A stretch of DNA of 38,647 nucleotides, taken from positions 1 to 38,647 of the forward strand of contig JAGWRZ010000137.1 of NCBI GenBank assembly GCA_028876365.1, given 5' to 3'. The notes beneath the pieces are model-generated. The model ran no database searches, was not told where the DNA came from, and saw only the letters and a list, made by a program, of their open reading frames with translations. A program made the translations under genes and the position numbers. Positions 1,587-17,132 of this stretch are shown here, piece after piece (position 1 is the first letter of the stretch; the number at the start of each line of letters is the position of its first letter). Source of the stretch: Acidobacteriota bacterium. GTDB taxonomy: Bacteria > Actinomycetota > Thermoleophilia > Gaiellales > Gaiellaceae.

Positions 1587-3401
1587 TCACGCGCTGAGCT
1601 CGAGCTCGGCGTCGCGGCTGACGAGCGCGGCGTACCGTCCGCCGGCTGCGACGAGCTCCTCGTGGCGACCGATCTCGACGACCCGGCCACGGTCGAGGAC
1701 GACGATCTGGTCGGCGTCGCGGATGGTCGACAGCCGGTGCGCGATCGCGATCGTCGTCCGCCCTTCGGACAGGCGGTCGAGCGCGTCCTGCACGAGCCGT
1801 TCGGTCTCGGTGTCGAGCGAGCTCGTCGCCTCGTCGAGGACGAGGATCGGCGGATTGCGCAGAACCGTGCGCGCGATCGCGATCCGCTGCTTCTCGCCCC
1901 CGGAGAAGCGGTAGCCACGCTCGCCGACCATCGTGTCGTAGCCCTCCGGAAGCGCGGCGATGACGTGGTGGATGCGCGCCGCCCTCGCCGCGTCCTCCAC
2001 CTCCTCGTCGGTCGCGTCCGGCTTTGCGAAGCGGAGGTTCTCGCGCACGCTCGCGTGGAAGAGATACGTCTCCTGAGAGACGACGCCGACGAGATCCGAC
2101 AATGCCTGGAAGCCGAGGTCGCGCACGTCGACACCGCCGATCGTCACGCTGCCGGAGGTGACGTCGTACAGGCGAGCCGCCAGGTAGCCGAGCGTCGTCT
2201 TGCCCGACCCGGTCTCGCCGACGATCGCGGTCGTCGTCCCTGCCGGGACGGCGAAGGAGACGTCCTCGAGCGCCAGGCCGCCGCCGTAGCTGAACGAGAC
2301 GTCGTCGTACACGACGTCGCCGGGTATCCCCTCGAGGACCGCGTCCGGCTTCTCGTCGATGTCGACCGGCTGGTCGAGGTACTCGAAGATGCGGTCGAAG
2401 AGCGCGAGCGAGGTCTGCACGTCGAGGCCGACGCCGAGCAGCGACCCGACCGGGAAGAAGAGCCGCGTCTGCAGCGTCGTGAACGCGATGATCGTGGGGA
2501 TCGAGACGAGGTGCGTGAAGCCGCCAAGCCAGTAGACGGCGGCCGGCATCACCGAGAAGCTCGTCTGGATCGAGGCCATCACCCAGCGGCCGGCCATCCT
2601 CTGGCGCACCTCGAGGTCGGCGAGGTTGAGCGACTCAGACTCGAAGCGGTCGGCGAGCTCGCGCGTGCGCCCCATCGTCTTGCCGAGCAGGATCCCGCTG
2701 ACCGACAGCGACTCCTGCACGAGGCTGGAGATGTCGGCGAGCGACTCCTGGGTCGTCTTCGCGATCTTGCGCCGCTCGTTTCCGACGCGCCGTGTCAGGA
2801 CCGCGAAGAGCGGGATGAGCGCGAACGCGAAGAGCGAGAGCTGCCAGCTCAGCAGCAGCATGCCCACCATCGTCGCGATGACGGTCGTGCCGCTCTGCGT
2901 GATGTTCGTCGCCGTCGTCGTGACGACGTTCTGGACTCCGCCGATGTCGTTGTTGATGCGCGACTGCACCTCGCCCGTCCTCGTTCGCGTGAAGAAGGCG
3001 AGCGACAGCCGCTGGAGATGGCGGAACACGGCGGCGCGCAGGTCGTGCATGACGCGCTGGCCGACCTGGTTCGAGAGCAGCGTCTGGACGACGCCGAGGA
3101 CGCCGGTGAAGATCGCGATCGCGATCATCGCGCCCGCGTTGTACGAGATGGCCCCCTTGTCGTGATGGCCGATCGCGATCAGCAGCCTCCGGAGGAGGAA
3201 CGCCGGGAGCACGCCGACCCCGGCGGTGACGACGATCAGGCCGAGCAGGACCGAGAGCCTGCGCCAGTACGGCGTGAACAGGGGCCCGATCCGATGCAGG
3301 TTGGCGCGCCGGACGGCCGGGTCAGCGGGCCGCTCCGGCGCCTCGTGCGCGGAGTGGAAGAACATCCCCATCGCCGACCAGGTTACGTCGTCGTGCATCA
3401 T
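1587..3401 (-). CDS. ABC exporter half-transporter, fused permease and ATPase
   Basis: 604 residues from ATG 3401 (ATG 3398 is the alternative). Residues ~45-335 form a six-helix exporter membrane domain. The ATPase domain has Walker A GETGSGKTT (395-403), Q-loop VSQE (441-444), signature FSGGE (499-503), Walker B ending LVLDEA (to 525) and H-loop His555 in AIAHRLS. It is a homo- or heterodimeric type IV exporter of unknown substrate, in the MsbA/MDR-like group. Upstream open frame (to 3569) is antisense to moaX and not family-like, so it is excluded. The start lies 7 bases from the divergent moaX start. All catalytic motifs are intact. Confidence 0.92.
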   Translation of the reverse strand: MMHDDVTWSAMGMFFHSAHEAPERPADPAVRRANLHRIGPLFTPYWRRLSVLLGLIVVTAGVGVLPAFLLRRLLIAIGHHDKGAISYNAGAMIAIAIFTGVLGVVQTLLSNQVGQRVMHDLRAAVFRHLQRLSLAFFTRTRTGEVQSRINNDIGGVQNVVTTTATNITQSGTTVIATMVGMLLLSWQLSLFAFALIPLFAVLTRRVGNERRKIAKTTQESLADISSLVQESLSVSGILLGKTMGRTRELADRFESESLNLADLEVRQRMAGRWVMASIQTSFSVMPAAVYWLGGFTHLVSIPTIIAFTTLQTRLFFPVGSLLGVGLDVQTSLALFDRIFEYLDQPVDIDEKPDAVLEGIPGDVVYDDVSFSYGGGLALEDVSFAVPAGTTTAIVGETGSGKTTLGYLAARLYDVTSGSVTIGGVDVRDLGFQALSDLVGVVSQETYLFHASVRENLRFAKPDATDEEVEDAARAARIHHVIAALPEGYDTMVGERGYRFSGGEKQRIAIARTVLRNPPILVLDEATSSLDTETERLVQDALDRLSEGRTTIAIAHRLSTIRDADQIVVLDRGRVVEIGRHEELVAAGGRYAALVSRDAELELSA

Positions 3402-3408
3402 CGAGGAT

Positions 3409-4041
3409 GTGCGCGTCACGGTTCGACTCTTCGCCGGCCTGCGCGAGCGCGCGGGCACCGGTCGACTGGAGGTCGACGGCGTCGAGCGGGCCGGCGACGT
3501 CTGGAGCCGGCTCGGGCTCGGCCCCGAGCCGGGCGGGCTGATGTACGCGGTGAACCGCGCGTACGTCACGCGGGATCACGCGGTCGCCGACGGGGACGAG
3601 GTCGCGCTCATCCCGCCGGTCTCGGGGGGCGCCTTCGTCCTCAGCCGCGAGCCGCTCGACGTCGCCCGCGTCACGGGCGAAGCGGCGAGCGACGAAGCGG
3701 GCGCGATCGCGACCTTCGTGGGGACCGTCCGGCGGCATTCGCGCGGCCGCGAGGTCGTACGGCTCGAGTACGAGGCGTTCGAGGAGATGGCCGAACCGAT
3801 GCTGCGCGGGCTCGCCGGGGAGCTGAAGGCGAGGCACGGATTGTGCGAGGTCGCGATCCACCATCGCATCGGCGCCGTCGACATCCGCGAGCCGAGCGTC
3901 GTCATCGCCGTGTCGGCGCCGCACCGCAAAGCGGCGCTCGAGGCATGCCAGGAGGCGATCGACACGCTGAAGGAGACGATCCCGCTCTGGAAGAAGGAGA
4001 TCTACGCCGACGGCGAGGAGTGGATCGGGAGGGGATCGTGA
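3409..4041 (+). CDS. moaX: MoaD-MoaE fusion, molybdopterin synthase
   Basis: 210 residues. Residues 1-74 are a MoaD ubiquitin-like sulfur carrier ending in Gly73-Gly74 (PPVSGG). Residues ~75-210 are MoaE, with AGAIATFVGTVR, YEAF, the HHRIG loop and the Lys-rich IPLWKKE near the C-terminus. Together the domains convert cyclic pyranopterin monophosphate to molybdopterin. The order MoaD then MoaE in one chain matches mycobacterial MoaX, where, as I recall, cleavage after the diglycine frees the sulfur-carrying tail. GTG 3409 gives a proper MoaD N-terminus (VRVTVRLFAGLRERAG). Its last bases overlap the start of the M50 protease gene (GTGA). Confidence 0.9.
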   Translation: MRVTVRLFAGLRERAGTGRLEVDGVERAGDVWSRLGLGPEPGGLMYAVNRAYVTRDHAVADGDEVALIPPVSGGAFVLSREPLDVARVTGEAASDEAGAIATFVGTVRRHSRGREVVRLEYEAFEEMAEPMLRGLAGELKARHGLCEVAIHHRIGAVDIREPSVVIAVSAPHRKAALEACQEAIDTLKETIPLWKKEIYADGEEWIGRGS

Positions 4042-4679
4042 AGCGGACGCTGGAACGCTTGCTGGGCGGAGCGGTCGTGATCGGTGGGACGGCGCTGAAG
4101 TGGGGATTCCTCTTCGCGAAGTTCTTCGGGTTCTTCATCTCCGCCGCGGCGTACTCGTTCTGGTTTCACAGCTGGACGTTCGGCGTCGGCCTCGCGGTGC
4201 TGATCCTCGTGCACGAGATCGGCCACGTCGTCGAGGCGCGGAGACAGGGACTGCACGTGTCGTGGCCGATGTTCATCCCGTTCCTCGGCGCGTACGTGAC
4301 GATCAGCCGCGCCGGGCTGACTCCGCTGCGCAGCGGGCTCATCTCCCTCGCGGGGCCCTTCGTCGGGTCGCTCGGCGCCGCGGCCGTCTGGGCGGCGAGC
4401 GGCGTTCAGGGCTCGAACAAGCTCGAGGTGCTCGCCAATCTCGGGTTCCTCCTGAACGCGTTCAACCTGCTCCCGATCGGCTTCCTCGACGGCGGTCACG
4501 TCGTCGGCTCGATCCGCGAGGCGTGGCGCATGCCCGTCATCCGTTTCGAAGGCGGCGTCCCGATGCAGGCGTTCGCTCCCGACCGCGCACGCGCCGTGCA
4601 GCTCTTCTCACTCTACGCCGGACTGGCGGCGGCGATCGTCCTCTGCCTCCTCGCGACCCGACCGAACGGAGCCCTGTGA
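4038..4679 (+). CDS. M50 (site-2 protease family) membrane metalloprotease
   Basis: 213 residues, several membrane helices. Zinc motif HEIGH at 59-63 lies in a helix, and the second motif NLLPIGFLDGGH (143-154) supplies Asp151. Both are the standard signature of S2P/SpoIVFB-type intramembrane proteases. There is no PDZ or CBS domain, so it is a minimal member. GTG 4038 overlaps the moaX stop and is preceded by a GGGAGGGGA ribosome site. It overlaps the next gene too, so moaX, this gene and the LOG gene are translationally coupled. The substrate is unknown. S2P enzymes often release membrane-bound regulators, which is of interest given the tethered sigma factor near 15 kb, but no link is shown. 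Confidence 0.88.
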   Translation: MKRTLERLLGGAVVIGGTALKWGFLFAKFFGFFISAAAYSFWFHSWTFGVGLAVLILVHEIGHVVEARRQGLHVSWPMFIPFLGAYVTISRAGLTPLRSGLISLAGPFVGSLGAAAVWAASGVQGSNKLEVLANLGFLLNAFNLLPIGFLDGGHVVGSIREAWRMPVIRFEGGVPMQAFAPDRARAVQLFSLYAGLAAAIVLCLLATRPNGAL

Positions 4680-5354: not shown

Positions 5355-6626
5355 ATGGAGCTGCGCGACCTGCCCTCGGTGGACGAGCTCGCACGGGACG
5401 CCGGCGACCCGCTCGCTGTCGACGCCGCCCGCGCCGTCCTCGCGCGCGCGCGTGAAGAGATAAAGCTGGGCGTCGACCCCGGCGACCTCGCCGCGCGCCT
5501 CCGGGCGGAGCTCGAGACGGTGCGCGCGCCGAGCCTGCGCCGTGTCCTCAACGCGACCGGCGTCATCGTCCACACCAATCTCGGCCGCGCGCCGCTCGCG
5601 CCCGAGGCGCTCGCGCGCGTGAACGACGCTGCGCGCGGGTACTCAAATCTCGAGCTCGATCTCGACGACGGGGTGCGGGGCTCGCGGCAGGACCATCTCG
5701 CCGCCCTCCTGCGCCGCATGACCGGCGCGGAGGCGGCGCTCGTCGTCAACAACAACGCCGCCGCCGTGCTCCTGGCGCTCGCGGCGCTCGCGGAGGGCCG
5801 CGAGGTCGTCGTCTCGCGCGGCGAGCTCCTCGAGATCGGCGACGGCTTCCGCATCCCCGACGTGCTCGCACGCTCGGGCGCGCGACTCGTCGAGGTCGGC
5901 ACGACGAACCGTACGCGCGCGGCGGACTACGCGAACGCGATCCGGCCCGAGACGGCGCTTCTCCTCCGCGTGCACCAGTCGAACTTCCGCGTCGTCGGCT
6001 TCGCCGAACTCCCGCGCCTCGAGGAGCTCGCCGCAGTCGCGCGCGCGCACGACCTGCCGCTCGTCGACGATCTCGGTTCGGGGGTGCTCGGCGAGCTCGC
6101 GGGCGAGCCGTCGGTGCGTGCGTCGCTCGCGGCCGGAGCCGACCTCGTGTGCTTCTCGGGCGACAAGCTGCTCGGCGGGCCGCAGGCCGGGATCGTCGCC
6201 GGCCGCGCCGACCTGGTCGAGAAGCTGCGGCGACATCCTCTCCAGCGCGCCGTTCGGGTCGACAAGCTCACGCTCGCCGCTCTCGAGGGGACGCTCCTCC
6301 TCCACCTCGACGCGCCGGAGCGGATTCCGGTGCTGCGGATGCTCGGCGAGGAAGCGGCCGTCGTGCGCATGCGGGCGTCGCGGCTCGCGGAGCTGACCGG
6401 CGGCACGGTCGAGGAGACGGTGGCCCGGGTCGGCGGCGGCGCGCTCCCGCTCGCGGAGCTGCCGAGCTTCGCGTGCGCGCTCGACGAGTCGCTCGCGGCA
6501 CCGCTGCGGGACGGAGAGCCGCCGGTGATCGCCATCGTCCGCGACGGGAAGCTCCTGCTCGACTGCCGCACGCTCGCCGACTGCGAGCTCGACGACGTGG
6601 CGTCCGCTGTATCCCGATGCCGCTGA
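5355..6626 (+). CDS. selA: L-seryl-tRNA(Sec) selenium transferase
   Basis: 423 residues. This PLP enzyme converts Ser-tRNA(Sec) to Sec-tRNA(Sec) using selenophosphate. Motifs: LRRVLNATGVIVHTNLGRAPL (62-82), NNNAAAVLLAL (132-142), the SRGELLEIG loop, VDDLGSG, and the PLP lysine Lys271 in SGDKLLGGPQAG. The length is somewhat short of the E. coli protein, mostly at the N-terminus, but the core is complete. The last 10 bases overlap selB. Together with selC at 13.9 kb this is a full insertion machinery apart from selD, which is not in the window. Confidence 0.96.
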   Translation: MELRDLPSVDELARDAGDPLAVDAARAVLARAREEIKLGVDPGDLAARLRAELETVRAPSLRRVLNATGVIVHTNLGRAPLAPEALARVNDAARGYSNLELDLDDGVRGSRQDHLAALLRRMTGAEAALVVNNNAAAVLLALAALAEGREVVVSRGELLEIGDGFRIPDVLARSGARLVEVGTTNRTRAADYANAIRPETALLLRVHQSNFRVVGFAELPRLEELAAVARAHDLPLVDDLGSGVLGELAGEPSVRASLAAGADLVCFSGDKLLGGPQAGIVAGRADLVEKLRRHPLQRAVRVDKLTLAALEGTLLLHLDAPERIPVLRMLGEEAAVVRMRASRLAELTGGTVEETVARVGGGALPLAELPSFACALDESLAAPLRDGEPPVIAIVRDGKLLLDCRTLADCELDDVASAVSRCR

Positions 6627-13937: not shown

Positions 13938-14029
13938 GGAGCGGCCGGGCCCGGTGGCCCAGCCGGTCTTCAAAACCGGTGAGGCGGCGTAACCCGTCGC
14001 TGGGTAGGTTCGACTCCTGCGCCGCTCCG
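13938..14029 (+). tRNA. selC: tRNA-Sec (anticodon TCA)
   Basis: 92 bases with the special selenocysteine tRNA architecture. The 8-bp acceptor stem is GGAGCGGC/GCCGCTCC (13938-13945 and 14021-14028). The D-stem is GGGCC/GGCCC with a short loop. The anticodon stem CCGGT/ACCGG encloses loop CTTCAAA with TCA at 13970-13972. A long variable arm has about 7 pairs (13983-13989 with 13995-14001). The T-stem is GTAGG/CCTGC around TTCGACT. The 8+5 acceptor/T arrangement is bacterial. CCA is not encoded. It completes the set with selA and selB 5.7 kb upstream. Confidence 0.96.
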
Positions 14030-14121
14030 TCCCGCAAAAGGAGGACCGCAAGTTTTCCGCGCCGTTTCACTCTTCTGAGGGCATCCATCGAACCGCCCTC
14101 GACCGAAATGAGGTACCAGAG

Positions 14122-14943
14122 ATGAAGCAGCTCATCGTCGTGGCCGCTGCGGCCGGCGCGCTCGCCGCGTCGCCGTCGGCATTCGCCTCGCCCGCGCGGG
14201 CGGCGGCGGACACCGTGATCGCGAAGACGACCGGCGGGGTCCTCGTCGCGAACGCGCGCGGCTCGGTCTCCCTCGTCCACGCCCACGCCCGGGTCGGCGA
14301 CCGCATCGTGAAGCTCGGCTCCCGCGTGTGGGTCGTCGGTCTCGCGCACACTGCGCGCATCCGCGGCATCGCCGTCGCGACCCGGGGGAACATGCTCGTG
14401 CTCACCGCCGCGGACAGGCTCTTCACGGTCGGGCTCGGCGTGCGGAGGCTCGCGTCCGACTCGCAGGGGTCGGCGCCGCAGACGGGTGATGTCGTCGGCG
14501 CCGTCGTCTCGATCGACGCGAACGGGAACATCACGGCGACCTCGACGGAGGACGACGGCCCCGCCGCGACCTCGCAGACACAGGCGACGATCACCGCGGT
14601 GAGCGCCACGACGGTGACACTCGACGTGAACGGCAGCTCGGTGACGCTGCAGCTCCCGGCCGGCACGCCGATCCCGGCCACCTCCGTCGGCACGCAGGTC
14701 ACGCTCACCCTCACGTTCTCCGGGGGATCGACAACGGCCACCGAGGACGACCAGGGCGAGGACCAGCCCTCGACGCAGGGCTCCGGCGAGGACGGCGGCC
14801 AAAGCGGGACCACGGGCACCTCGGGGTCGACCAGCTCGTCGCAGGACGACGGAGGCGCGAGCAGCGACAACAGCGGCACGAGCAGCAGCAACAGCGGCAC
14901 GAGCAGCGACGGCGGCTCCGGAAGCGGGGGCGGCGACGACTAG
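14122..14943 (+). CDS. secreted two-repeat beta protein (DUF5666-like) with acidic Ser/Gly tail
   Basis: 273 residues. Signal peptide ~1-29 (hydrophobic AAAAGALAASPSAFAS then ARA). Two similar beta-barrel-like units follow: VIAKTTGGVLVANARGSVSLVHA...GSRVWVVG and ATITAVSATTVTLDVNGSSVTLQLP...GTQVTLTL, resembling DUF5666-type domains. Residues ~205-273 are a low-complexity Ser/Gly/Thr/Asp/Gln tail. Function unknown. It is the first gene of a locus with a membrane-tethered sigma factor and an HtrA-like protease, so a surface or sensor role is plausible. ATG 14122 is the only start preceding the signal peptide; upstream ATG 14108 hits a stop. The leader contains GGTACCAG, a half copy of the palindromic repeat. 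Confidence 0.75.
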   Translation: MKQLIVVAAAAGALAASPSAFASPARAAADTVIAKTTGGVLVANARGSVSLVHAHARVGDRIVKLGSRVWVVGLAHTARIRGIAVATRGNMLVLTAADRLFTVGLGVRRLASDSQGSAPQTGDVVGAVVSIDANGNITATSTEDDGPAATSQTQATITAVSATTVTLDVNGSSVTLQLPAGTPIPATSVGTQVTLTLTFSGGSTTATEDDQGEDQPSTQGSGEDGGQSGTTGTSGSTSSSQDDGGASSDNSGTSSSNSGTSSDGGSGSGGGDD

Positions 14944-16111
14944 CGCTCCCGACTCCCTCCCCGCGAGCCGCCTCCCGCCGGAGGCGGCTCGCGCGCGGAC
15001 CGAGGAGCTCTTCCTCCGTCACGGCCGCCTCGTCGCGGGGCTCTGCCGTGGCCTGCTGCGCAACACGCACGAGGCCGAGGACGCCGCGCAGCAGGCGTTT
15101 CTCTCCGTCCACGCGGCGTTCATGCGAGGCGCAGAGCCCGACGACCCTGCCCGCTGGCTCGCGGCGATCGCGCGGAACGAATGCCTGACGCGCATCCGCG
15201 AGCGCATGCGCAACCCGCTGCCCGTGGCGGACGCCGGCGAGGCAGCGTCGATGGCCGACCCGGTCGCGGATGCAGCGCGCCGCGCGGACATCGGCGCGCT
15301 CTGGCGCGCCGTCGACACACTCGCCCCGCAGCAGCGCGAGGCGCTCCTCCTGCGCGAGTTCGGCGGCATGTCCTACGAGGAGCTCGCTCTCGCGCTCGGC
15401 GTGACGGTGCCGGCGGTCGAATCGCTCCTCTTCCGCGCACGGACGCGTCTGCGCGCCGAGCTGCGGGCGGTCGCCTCCGCCCTCGCCGGCTTCCTGCCGC
15501 GCCTCTTCGCGGGCGGCGGCGTCGCGAAGGTCGCCTCCGTCACCGTGACGGCCGGCCTGCTCACGGGCGGCGTCGTCGCCGGCGAGCACGTTCTCCGGGC
15601 CGGCCGCGTGGCTCCCCGCCATGCCGCCCCCGCGGTCAGGCTCGTCTCGCCGCTCTCGGACCTGCCGCCGGAGCACGCCCCCGCGCCGCCGGCGCACCGG
15701 ACGGCCACGGCGCCGCGCCGCTCCACGCCCGCGCCCTCCCCGCCGACCGTCTTCGCGCCGTCGACCCCGGCACCCGTCCTCGTCTCCGAGTCGAGGCCCT
15801 CGCCCGGGCACGATGCATCCTCCGGCGACACGTCCGGACAGACGGAGACTCCGGACACGCCGGACGCACCCGTGCCCGTGCGCGAGGCCGACGACGCCTC
15901 GACCCCGCCGCCGGCGGCGGCGACGGAGCCGCAGTCGGGCGACACGACGACGACGCCCGCCTCCGCGGATGACGGCGCGACGACGACGACCGCCGCCGCC
16001 ACCACCACCACGACGACGACGACGCCGACGCCCGCACAGGACTCCGCCGATACGGGCACCGACGGGGCCTCCGGCGCCGACGGGGCCGCGAGCACCGACG
16101 GCGGCTCTTAA
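14942..16111 (+). CDS. ECF-like RNA polymerase sigma factor with C-terminal membrane segment and extracytoplasmic tail; start not canonical
   Basis: Region 2 is recognisable from base ~14,999 (TEELFLRHGRLVAGLC, EAEDAAQQAFLSVHAAF, RWLAAIARNECLTRIRER). Region 4 follows (LAPQQREALLLREFGGMSYE, AVESLLFRARTRLRAEL). After ~ATG+130 codons comes a hydrophobic segment (VASVTVTAGLLTGGVVAG), then ~170 residues rich in Pro, Thr, Ala and Asp including a poly-Thr run. The first ATG (15122) falls inside region 2 and would destroy it. The frame is open back to TGA 14642 but contains no ATG, GTG or TTG, so the true start is unknown; 14942 marks only the frame after the upstream stop. A 14-bp perfect hairpin lies in this segment. 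Confidence 0.75.
   Translation, partial: SAPDSLPASRLPPEAARARTEELFLRHGRLVAGLCRGLLRNTHEAEDAAQQAFLSVHAAFMRGAEPDDPARWLAAIARNECLTRIRERMRNPLPVADAGEAASMADPVADAARRADIGALWRAVDTLAPQQREALLLREFGGMSYEELALALGVTVPAVESLLFRARTRLRAELRAVASALAGFLPRLFAGGGVAKVASVTVTAGLLTGGVVAGEHVLRAGRVAPRHAAPAVRLVSPLSDLPPEHAPAPPAHRTATAPRRSTPAPSPPTVFAPSTPAPVLVSESRPSPGHDASSGDTSGQTETPDTPDAPVPVREADDASTPPPAAATEPQSGDTTTTPASADDGATTTTAAATTTTTTTTPTPAQDSADTGTDGASGADGAASTDGGS
14962..14993 (+). terminator. perfect 14-bp GC hairpin between secreted-protein stop and sigma region 2
   Basis: Arms 14962-14975 (CGCGAGCCGCCTCC) and 14980-14993 are exact reverse complements around a 4-base CGCC loop. No T-run follows. It may be a terminator, an attenuator, or an mRNA structure controlling the sigma gene. 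Confidence 0.55.
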
Positions 16112-16145
16112 CGCGCTCTCAGTCGCTCCGGGTACAACGAGGGGG

Positions 16146-17132
16146 ATGAAGCGCATCGCCCTTCTCCTCGCCGCCGTCGCGGCCGCCGTCGTCGGCGCCC
16201 GCGCCGCTCTCGCGCACACGGCGCGCGCGACCGTCCAGGCGGGCGTCGTCATCGTGAACACGAACCTCGCCTTCCACAACGGGGCCGCCGCCGGGACGGG
16301 GATCGTCCTCACCTCCTCCGGGGAGGTCGTGACGAACAACCACGTCATCCGCGGGGCGTCGCGGATCACCGTCGTCGACCCGCGGACGCACAGGCGCTAT
16401 GCGGCGCGAATCGTCGGCTACGACGTCGCCGACGACATCGCCGTCCTCCAGCTGCGGCACGCCACGGGTCTCGCGACGGTCGCGCTCGGCAGCTCGGCGG
16501 GCCTGAAGGTCGGCCAGCCGGTGACCGCCGTCGGGAACGCCGGCGGCACCGGGTCGCTCACGGTCACGACCGGAACGATCACCGGGCTCGCGCGGGCGAT
16601 CACCGTCGCCGACGAGTCGGGCGCCGAAGCGCTCGCCGGGCTCGTCGAGACCGACGCGCAGCTGCAGCCGGGCGACTCGGGCGGCCCGCTCCTCGACTCC
16701 GGCGGCCGCGTGATCGGCATCGACACCGCCGCCTCCTCCGGCTTCAGCTTCCGCAATGCGAACGACGGCTACGCCATCCCGATCGACAAGGTCGTGACGG
16801 TGGCGAGGCAGGTCGTCGCCGGCCACGGCTCCGCGTCGGTCCACGTCGGCCGGACGGCGTTCCTCGGCGTCTCCGTCCAGTCCGCCGACGCCTACGGCGG
16901 CGGCGGGATCCTCGTCGGCGGCGTCATCGCCGGCGGCCCCGCCGCGAAGGGCGGGCTCGGCACGGGCGACATCATCACGAGCGTAGACCGGCGCGCCGTC
17001 GCCTCGCAGAACGCGCTCGTCGCCGCGCTCCTCCTGCACCATCCCGGCGACCGCGTCACCGTCGCGTGGACCGACCGCATCGGCGACGACCACGCTGCGA
17101 CGGTCACGCTCGCGAGCGGGCCGCCGCAGTAG
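16146..17132 (+). CDS. secreted HtrA/DegP-like serine protease (S1C) with C-terminal PDZ
   Basis: 328 residues. N-terminal signal peptide or anchor (1-23), then a trypsin-like domain with His66 (TNNHVI), Asp97 (ADDIAVL) and Ser178 (QPGDSGGPL). A PDZ domain starts at ~237 (FLGVSVQ...GGVIAGGPAAKGGLGTGDIITSV). ATG 16146 is preceded by a GAGGGGG ribosome site. Exported proteases of this type handle misfolded or stress-marked proteins, and some cut regulators at site 1. It lies 34 bases after the tethered sigma gene whose tail would be exposed outside the membrane; cleavage of that tail is a testable guess. Confidence 0.92.
   Translation: MKRIALLLAAVAAAVVGARAALAHTARATVQAGVVIVNTNLAFHNGAAAGTGIVLTSSGEVVTNNHVIRGASRITVVDPRTHRRYAARIVGYDVADDIAVLQLRHATGLATVALGSSAGLKVGQPVTAVGNAGGTGSLTVTTGTITGLARAITVADESGAEALAGLVETDAQLQPGDSGGPLLDSGGRVIGIDTAASSGFSFRNANDGYAIPIDKVVTVARQVVAGHGSASVHVGRTAFLGVSVQSADAYGGGGILVGGVIAGGPAAKGGLGTGDIITSVDRRAVASQNALVAALLLHHPGDRVTVAWTDRIGDDHAATVTLASGPPQ

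Follow-up and report, generated by a model that had tools for sequence, protein, structure and literature searches.

A likely self-anchored ECF sigma factor inherited with a secreted beta-rich protein in uncultured soil actinobacteria of the Thermoleophilia

Introduction

Knowledge of how ECF sigma factors are controlled rests mostly on separate or zinc-finger anti-sigma factors. In the SigE/RseA-DegS-RseP and RsiW-type pathways, the protein that is cleaved is a separate anti-sigma factor, whereas the locus described here contains neither such a gene nor a conserved adjacent protease and shares two-step proteolysis with these pathways as a working model only. Fusions of a sigma factor to its own anchor are already known, in ECF48, ECF52, and ECF53 as well as in IutY (PMC8999054, PMC5826349, PMC5411451). 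In the ECF52 protein SCO4117 of Streptomyces coelicolor, the sigma domain continues C-terminally into a transmembrane region and an extended tail rich in proline (PMC5826349), while ECF48 and ECF53 carry a C-terminally fused membrane extension and are predicted to be activated by proteolysis (PMC8999054). In IutY of Pseudomonas putida (ECF243), sigma factor, membrane segment, and periplasmic part form one chain, from which the sigma factor is freed by Prc and RseP (PMC5411451).

The sigma factor studied here is encoded in a stretch of 38,647 nucleotides (hereafter, the window), which corresponds to contig C95 in a draft genome of 2.6 Mb; its named relatives are metagenome genomes of the Thermoleophilia/Actinomycetota. 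Like ECF52, which is actinobacterial, the window protein combines a sigma factor with a long tail, joined in this case by a putative membrane anchor; however, Pfam showed in it neither the zinc finger nor the carbohydrate-binding module of ECF52, and its conserved partner is a secreted protein, the product of gene1. ECF48 and ECF53 are set apart by their description, which includes a ZAS-type zinc finger that the window sigma factor does not have. As in IutY, a sigma factor, a membrane segment, and an outer part are proposed to lie in one chain, but in IutY the periplasmic part serves as an anti-sigma domain of the kind used in iron-carrier signalling and is connected to an outer-membrane receptor, whereas the putatively external part of the window protein is of low complexity. 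Pfam gave no match to a FecR domain in the window sigma factor, and no TonB receptor was found beside it, its neighbours being gene1, a tRNA-SeC gene, and an HtrA protease gene. On these features, membership of either ECF52 or the IutY type is not supported, although the protein may work in a similar way. What is new here is a zinc-finger-less fusion of sigma factor and putative anchor, together with a newly recognised secreted partner.

Results

A previous reading of the window, made from the sequence alone (hereafter, the sequence-only reading), had described three genes on the same strand, coding for a secreted protein, a sigma factor, and a protease. The corresponding open reading frames were all found on the forward strand, with gene1 at 14122–14943, the sigma gene at 14936–16111, and the protease gene at 16146–17132. 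The sigma-70-like nature of the second product was confirmed by adjacent Pfam matches, both above cut-off, to region 2 (Sigma70_r2, PF04542, 15008–15211; 1.2e-12) and region 4 (Sigma70_r4_2, PF08281, 15296–15451; 3.9e-17), and the protein scored 75.2 bits against TIGR02937. It has regions 2 and 4 only, with no region 3, which places it among the ECF (group 4) sigma factors; the Pfam search returned nothing beyond these two regions. The absence of an anti-sigma gene alongside was also borne out, as no separate gene of this kind adjoins the sigma gene.

The sigma frame is open from stop to stop from 14645, and in the window ATG, GTG, and TTG are absent from every frame from about 14860 to 15046. 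Since no standard start precedes 15122, the first ATG of the sigma frame, and this codon lies within region 2, automatic annotation would give a truncated sigma factor. Relatives in which the two genes are paired mostly use GTG or ATG at the equivalent place or a few codons from it, with N-termini resembling M-T-(T)-S-A-P; in the window and in G055 this place is taken by ACG, and in G010 by CTG overlapping the gene1 stop. The window sigma factor thus likely begins at a non-AUG codon coupled to the gene1 stop, the best candidate being ACG at 14936, which overlaps that stop. A sequencing error is an unlikely cause of the missing start, because a canonical one is absent in three genomes and because, in the window, the absence from about 14860 to 15046 extends to all frames. 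A programmed frameshift from gene1 into the sigma gene was rejected, as the relation between the two frames varies from genome to genome and a sigma factor preceded by a signal peptide would make no sense.

Beyond region 4, the sigma chain comprises a hydrophobic segment, VAKVASVTVTAGLLTGGVVAG (15521–15583, forward strand), which contains a conserved Lys and is a putative membrane anchor, followed by a low-complexity tail of 175 residues (15584–16108, forward strand). This tail, rich in Pro, Thr, Ser, and Asp, and made up for about half of Pro, Ser, Thr, and Gly, is putatively extracellular. The sequence-only reading had placed a tether within the sigma chain, with a long Pro/Thr/Asp-rich stretch behind it; the tail was found as described, and the combination of hydrophobic segment and tail recurred among homologues. 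One hydrophobic peak after region 4 was present in all 42 family members measured (KD of 1.45–2.21, median 1.80), at a median distance of 28 residues past region 4, or of 72 residues when a zinc finger intervened. Within the clade of the window sigma factor, the Lys and one Gly of the segment are invariant.

The hydrophobic segment is therefore a real, conserved feature, which likely spans the membrane in the family and may do so in the window protein. As to the membrane segment claimed earlier, the conserved hydrophobic stretch stood, whereas the values for the window protein itself were less clear-cut. Its KD of 1.59 (p = 0.010 against shuffled versions of the extension following region 4) falls within the range of soluble proteins, those encoded in the window reaching up to 1.87, versus 2.24–2.49 for true membrane proteins encoded there. 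No inside-positive charge bias was found in the flanks of the segment, and AlphaFold, run with a 27-sequence alignment, predicted no helix there (pLDDT 34–43). These three results are those expected if the segment were no anchor and the extension were a cytoplasmic low-complexity regulatory tail, acting through auto-inhibition, protein binding, or phase separation. This explanation is unlikely, however, given that the segment is clustered and conserved at one place in the 42 homologues, with KD values up to 2.21, that paralogues have it behind zf-HC2, an arrangement seen in fused membrane anti-sigma factors, and that the sigma tail is similar to the tail exported as part of the gene1 product.

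No zf-HC2 (ZAS) domain was matched by Pfam in the window sigma factor, and the zinc finger was absent from every member of its clade (clade support 97/99). A paralogue in the same genome (L092) is arranged as region 2, region 4, zf-HC2, hydrophobic segment, and tail, and zf-HC2 likewise separates region 4 from the hydrophobic segment in L017 and L088; this layout is ECF52-like and is that of a fused membrane anti-sigma factor. The sigma tree requires at least two changes between the layouts with and without a zinc finger, corresponding to either loss or gain of the finger. Paralogous ECFs of the zf-HC2 type were observed in tandem with a zinc-finger-less copy in G012 and G024. For five ECFs from another family that have no extension (L008, L009, L012, L014, and L019), we saw no anti-sigma neighbour, and they are thus uninformative as a test of the fusion.

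The gene1 product (273 aa) was characterized by a signal peptide, two small beta repeats, and an acidic Ser/Gly tail starting at about 14740, in agreement with the secreted two-repeat protein described by the sequence-only reading. The repeats are distantly DUF5666- or OB-like. The window protein gave no match to DUF5666 (PF18914), a homologue from G013 (L089) passed at 3.8e-9, and secreted DUF5666 proteins are tied to the window gene1 solely via its homologues. Fold searches returned OB-like matches at non-significant levels only (best E 4.8e-3, TM about 0.2). The gene is rare, being present in 25 of the 129 genomes, mostly as a single copy. At one locus (G109, L122 5676–6090), the place of gene1 was taken by an exported protein consisting nearly entirely of an Asp/Glu-rich tail, with the promoter-like element described below being kept.

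At E ≤ 1e-30, a search for sigma homologues across the order yielded 24 further matches, spread over 22 other genomes. Gene1 adjoined the sigma gene in 11 genomes, including that of the window, and the two open reading frames overlapped or abutted in nine of these. It was located directly upstream of the sigma gene in G010, G064, G056, G055, G053, G091, G085, and G087, and directly downstream in G011 and G014. The pair usually occupies a site other than that of the window, in the order holB-gene1-sigma-sigma2-rpoD: holB, gene1, sigma, and sigma2 were found in succession in G064, G056, G055, and G010, with rpoD beyond them in G064 and G010. On the holB contig of the window genome (C49, L093), sigma2 comes right after holB and the gene1-sigma pair is missing. 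Most simply, the pair and its promoter would have relocated as a unit. The proposal that the secreted protein is a partner of the sigma factor is thus upheld by adjacency in 11 genomes and by the occurrence of the pair at different sites. The sigma2 gene codes for a second hydrophobic-tail ECF paralogue beside holB (L093, L083, L084, and L118), and is adjoined by rpoD in G010, G013, and G064.

A promoter-like element, CGCAAGTTTT-N13-CTCTTAG, with a 17-bp spacer from CGCAAG to CTCTTA, was identified upstream of gene1 in the window and in G010. The window copy (14047–14076, forward strand) ends in CTCTTct and has two mismatches to the family consensus, with the 17-bp spacer between hexamers. We scored 27 gene1-type loci, two of which had served to define the motif, and report raw counts that ignore kinship: the element was present in 11 of the 11 loci whose genomes carry the sigma clade, 56–102 bp upstream and with at most 4 mismatches, and in none of the 14 loci whose genomes lack it (at least 5 mismatches). 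The loci of G088 and G122, which have only distant sigma relatives, also showed at least 5 mismatches. The element was absent at sigma genes without gene1, and still present in G013, where gene1 is unlinked to its sigma gene. It therefore tracks gene1 and co-occurs with the sigma factor, as expected of a target promoter.

Such a distribution would also suit a gene1 that is merely a target of the sigma factor, with no regulatory role, the pairing reflecting autoregulation alone; indeed, the element stays with gene1 when the sigma gene is elsewhere (G013) or upstream (G011 and G014). We regard this as a serious possibility, albeit one with somewhat less than even odds, as the overlapping reading frames and the co-relocation suggest a tighter coupling, and an exported acidic-tail protein is retained in place of gene1 in G109. 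Genome-wide, the motif gave 18 hits versus about 13 for a reversed control, so that matches alone define no regulon; a copy at L092 was discarded because it lies inside the sigma open reading frame. Copies with 1–2 mismatches to CGCAAGTTTT-N13-CYCTTAG were observed in genomes without the window sigma clade, at L213, L218, and L224, 5–9 bp ahead of genes that encode exported or Tad-pilus-like proteins.

The third gene encodes an S1C protease with one PDZ, as had been proposed, on the basis of matches to Trypsin_2 (PF13365, 8.7e-30) and PDZ_2 (PF13180, 9.3e-12) and of an H-D-S triad found in NNHV, YDVADD, and GDSGG. The sequence-only reading had included this protease in the module. HtrA-family proteases can serve as site-1 proteases, as DegS does, and a dedicated three-part module in which the adjacent HtrA plays this part could be suggested from the shared strand of the three genes and the gap of 34 bp between sigma and protease. 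In the closest genome (G015; dnaB 94% and rpsR 96% identical), however, the order is HAD, tRNA-SeC, protease (66%), rpsF, ssb, rpsR, rplI, and dnaB, with about 47 bp separating tRNA-SeC from the protease, and gene1 and the sigma gene are absent. Alignment of the borders showed that the extra block in the window extends from the 3′ end of the tRNA-SeC gene (13938–14029, forward strand; identified by ARAGORN) to the sigma stop codon (about 14030–16106); the pair was either lost in G015 or gained at tRNA-SeC in the window lineage. Moreover, a sigma gene of the window type was found near none of the other protease orthologues (0 of 16 loci), and the protease near none of the sigma orthologues (0 of 23 loci), some contigs ending nearby. 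We therefore rejected HtrA as a dedicated protease and consider the three-part module highly improbable: the protease is a positional neighbour outside the conserved unit and lies beside the sigma gene by chance of position. With regard to conservation in relatives, neighbours were thus random for the protease but kept for the secreted protein. Near the protease, G056 has an unrelated short ECF at a distance of about 0.9 kb, and G013 a weak ECF match at about 3 kb.

The site-2-type protease mentioned in the sequence-only reading is a real gene, an M50 metalloprotease at 4038–4679 on the forward strand (family match 6.8e-17), but no link to the sigma factor was found. Immediately 5′ of it, at about 3400–4041, MoaD-like and MoaE-like domains appeared by eye to be fused in one open reading frame. 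The window also holds selenocysteine machinery of the lineage, with a selA-like open reading frame (5355–6626) and the tRNA-SeC gene.

Discussion

Our main reading, to which we give a probability of about 0.5, is that of an autoregulated, self-tethered ECF sigma factor that would be freed by general intramembrane proteolysis, with gene1 as an effector or feedback partner. Gene1 and the sigma gene, linked in 11 genomes, would form a translationally coupled two-gene operon. The C-terminal hydrophobic segment would hold the sigma factor on the cytoplasmic side of the membrane, while the disordered tail would lie outside. A signal from the envelope would lead to trimming of the tail and to intramembrane cleavage by the cell's general proteases, the adjacent HtrA not being dedicated to this system, and cleavage would free the part containing regions 2 and 4 for RNA polymerase. 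Proteolytic release has a precedent in IutY (PMC5411451) and has been modelled for ECF48, ECF52, and ECF53 (PMC8999054). The freed sigma factor would then read the element before gene1, resulting in self-amplification and in production of the gene1 protein, which, being exported, beta-rich, and acidic, could act outside as an effector or as a feedback partner of the tail.

We identified no cleavage site in the sigma chain, and counted against this self-tethered model that, without a zinc-finger anti-sigma domain, nothing obvious masks the sigma factor; tethering alone may leave it unsilenced. An anchored sigma factor could also be active uncleaved and bring in RNA polymerase from its tethered position, in the manner of regulators of the ToxR/CadC type, which is compatible with the lack of an inhibitory zinc-finger domain and of a conserved partner protease. 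Such activity seems quite unlikely, however, as a tether would hinder the promoter search and as IutY, the sole fused sigma factor whose activation has been experimentally characterised, is freed by proteolysis (PMC8999054, PMC5411451).

Self-tethering with release by proteolysis remains our preferred account. Going beyond it, we tentatively propose, while regarding the idea as rather doubtful, that the window protein belongs to a minimal class of membrane sensor sigma factors spread through one Thermoleophilia family. Each would be a single chain with no anti-sigma domain, silenced solely by a membrane anchor of marginal stability and tuned from outside by a secreted, beta-rich acidic protein translated together with it, and the class would have its own promoter code (CGCAAGTTTT-N13-CTCTTAG) and, in some members, non-AUG starts. 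The locus also illustrates how genes that look like an appealing "module" may have become neighbours only recently, since one sister genome suffices to drop the protease from it.

Overall, the unit, which comes from uncultured soil actinobacteria (Thermoleophilia), is likely a self-anchored sigma factor inherited together with a secreted beta-rich protein. A family that has an anchor and a tail but no anti-sigma domain raises the question of whether a tether by itself is enough to silence a sigma factor, and the gene1-sigma pair, with its predicted promoter, makes this question testable in a heterologous host.
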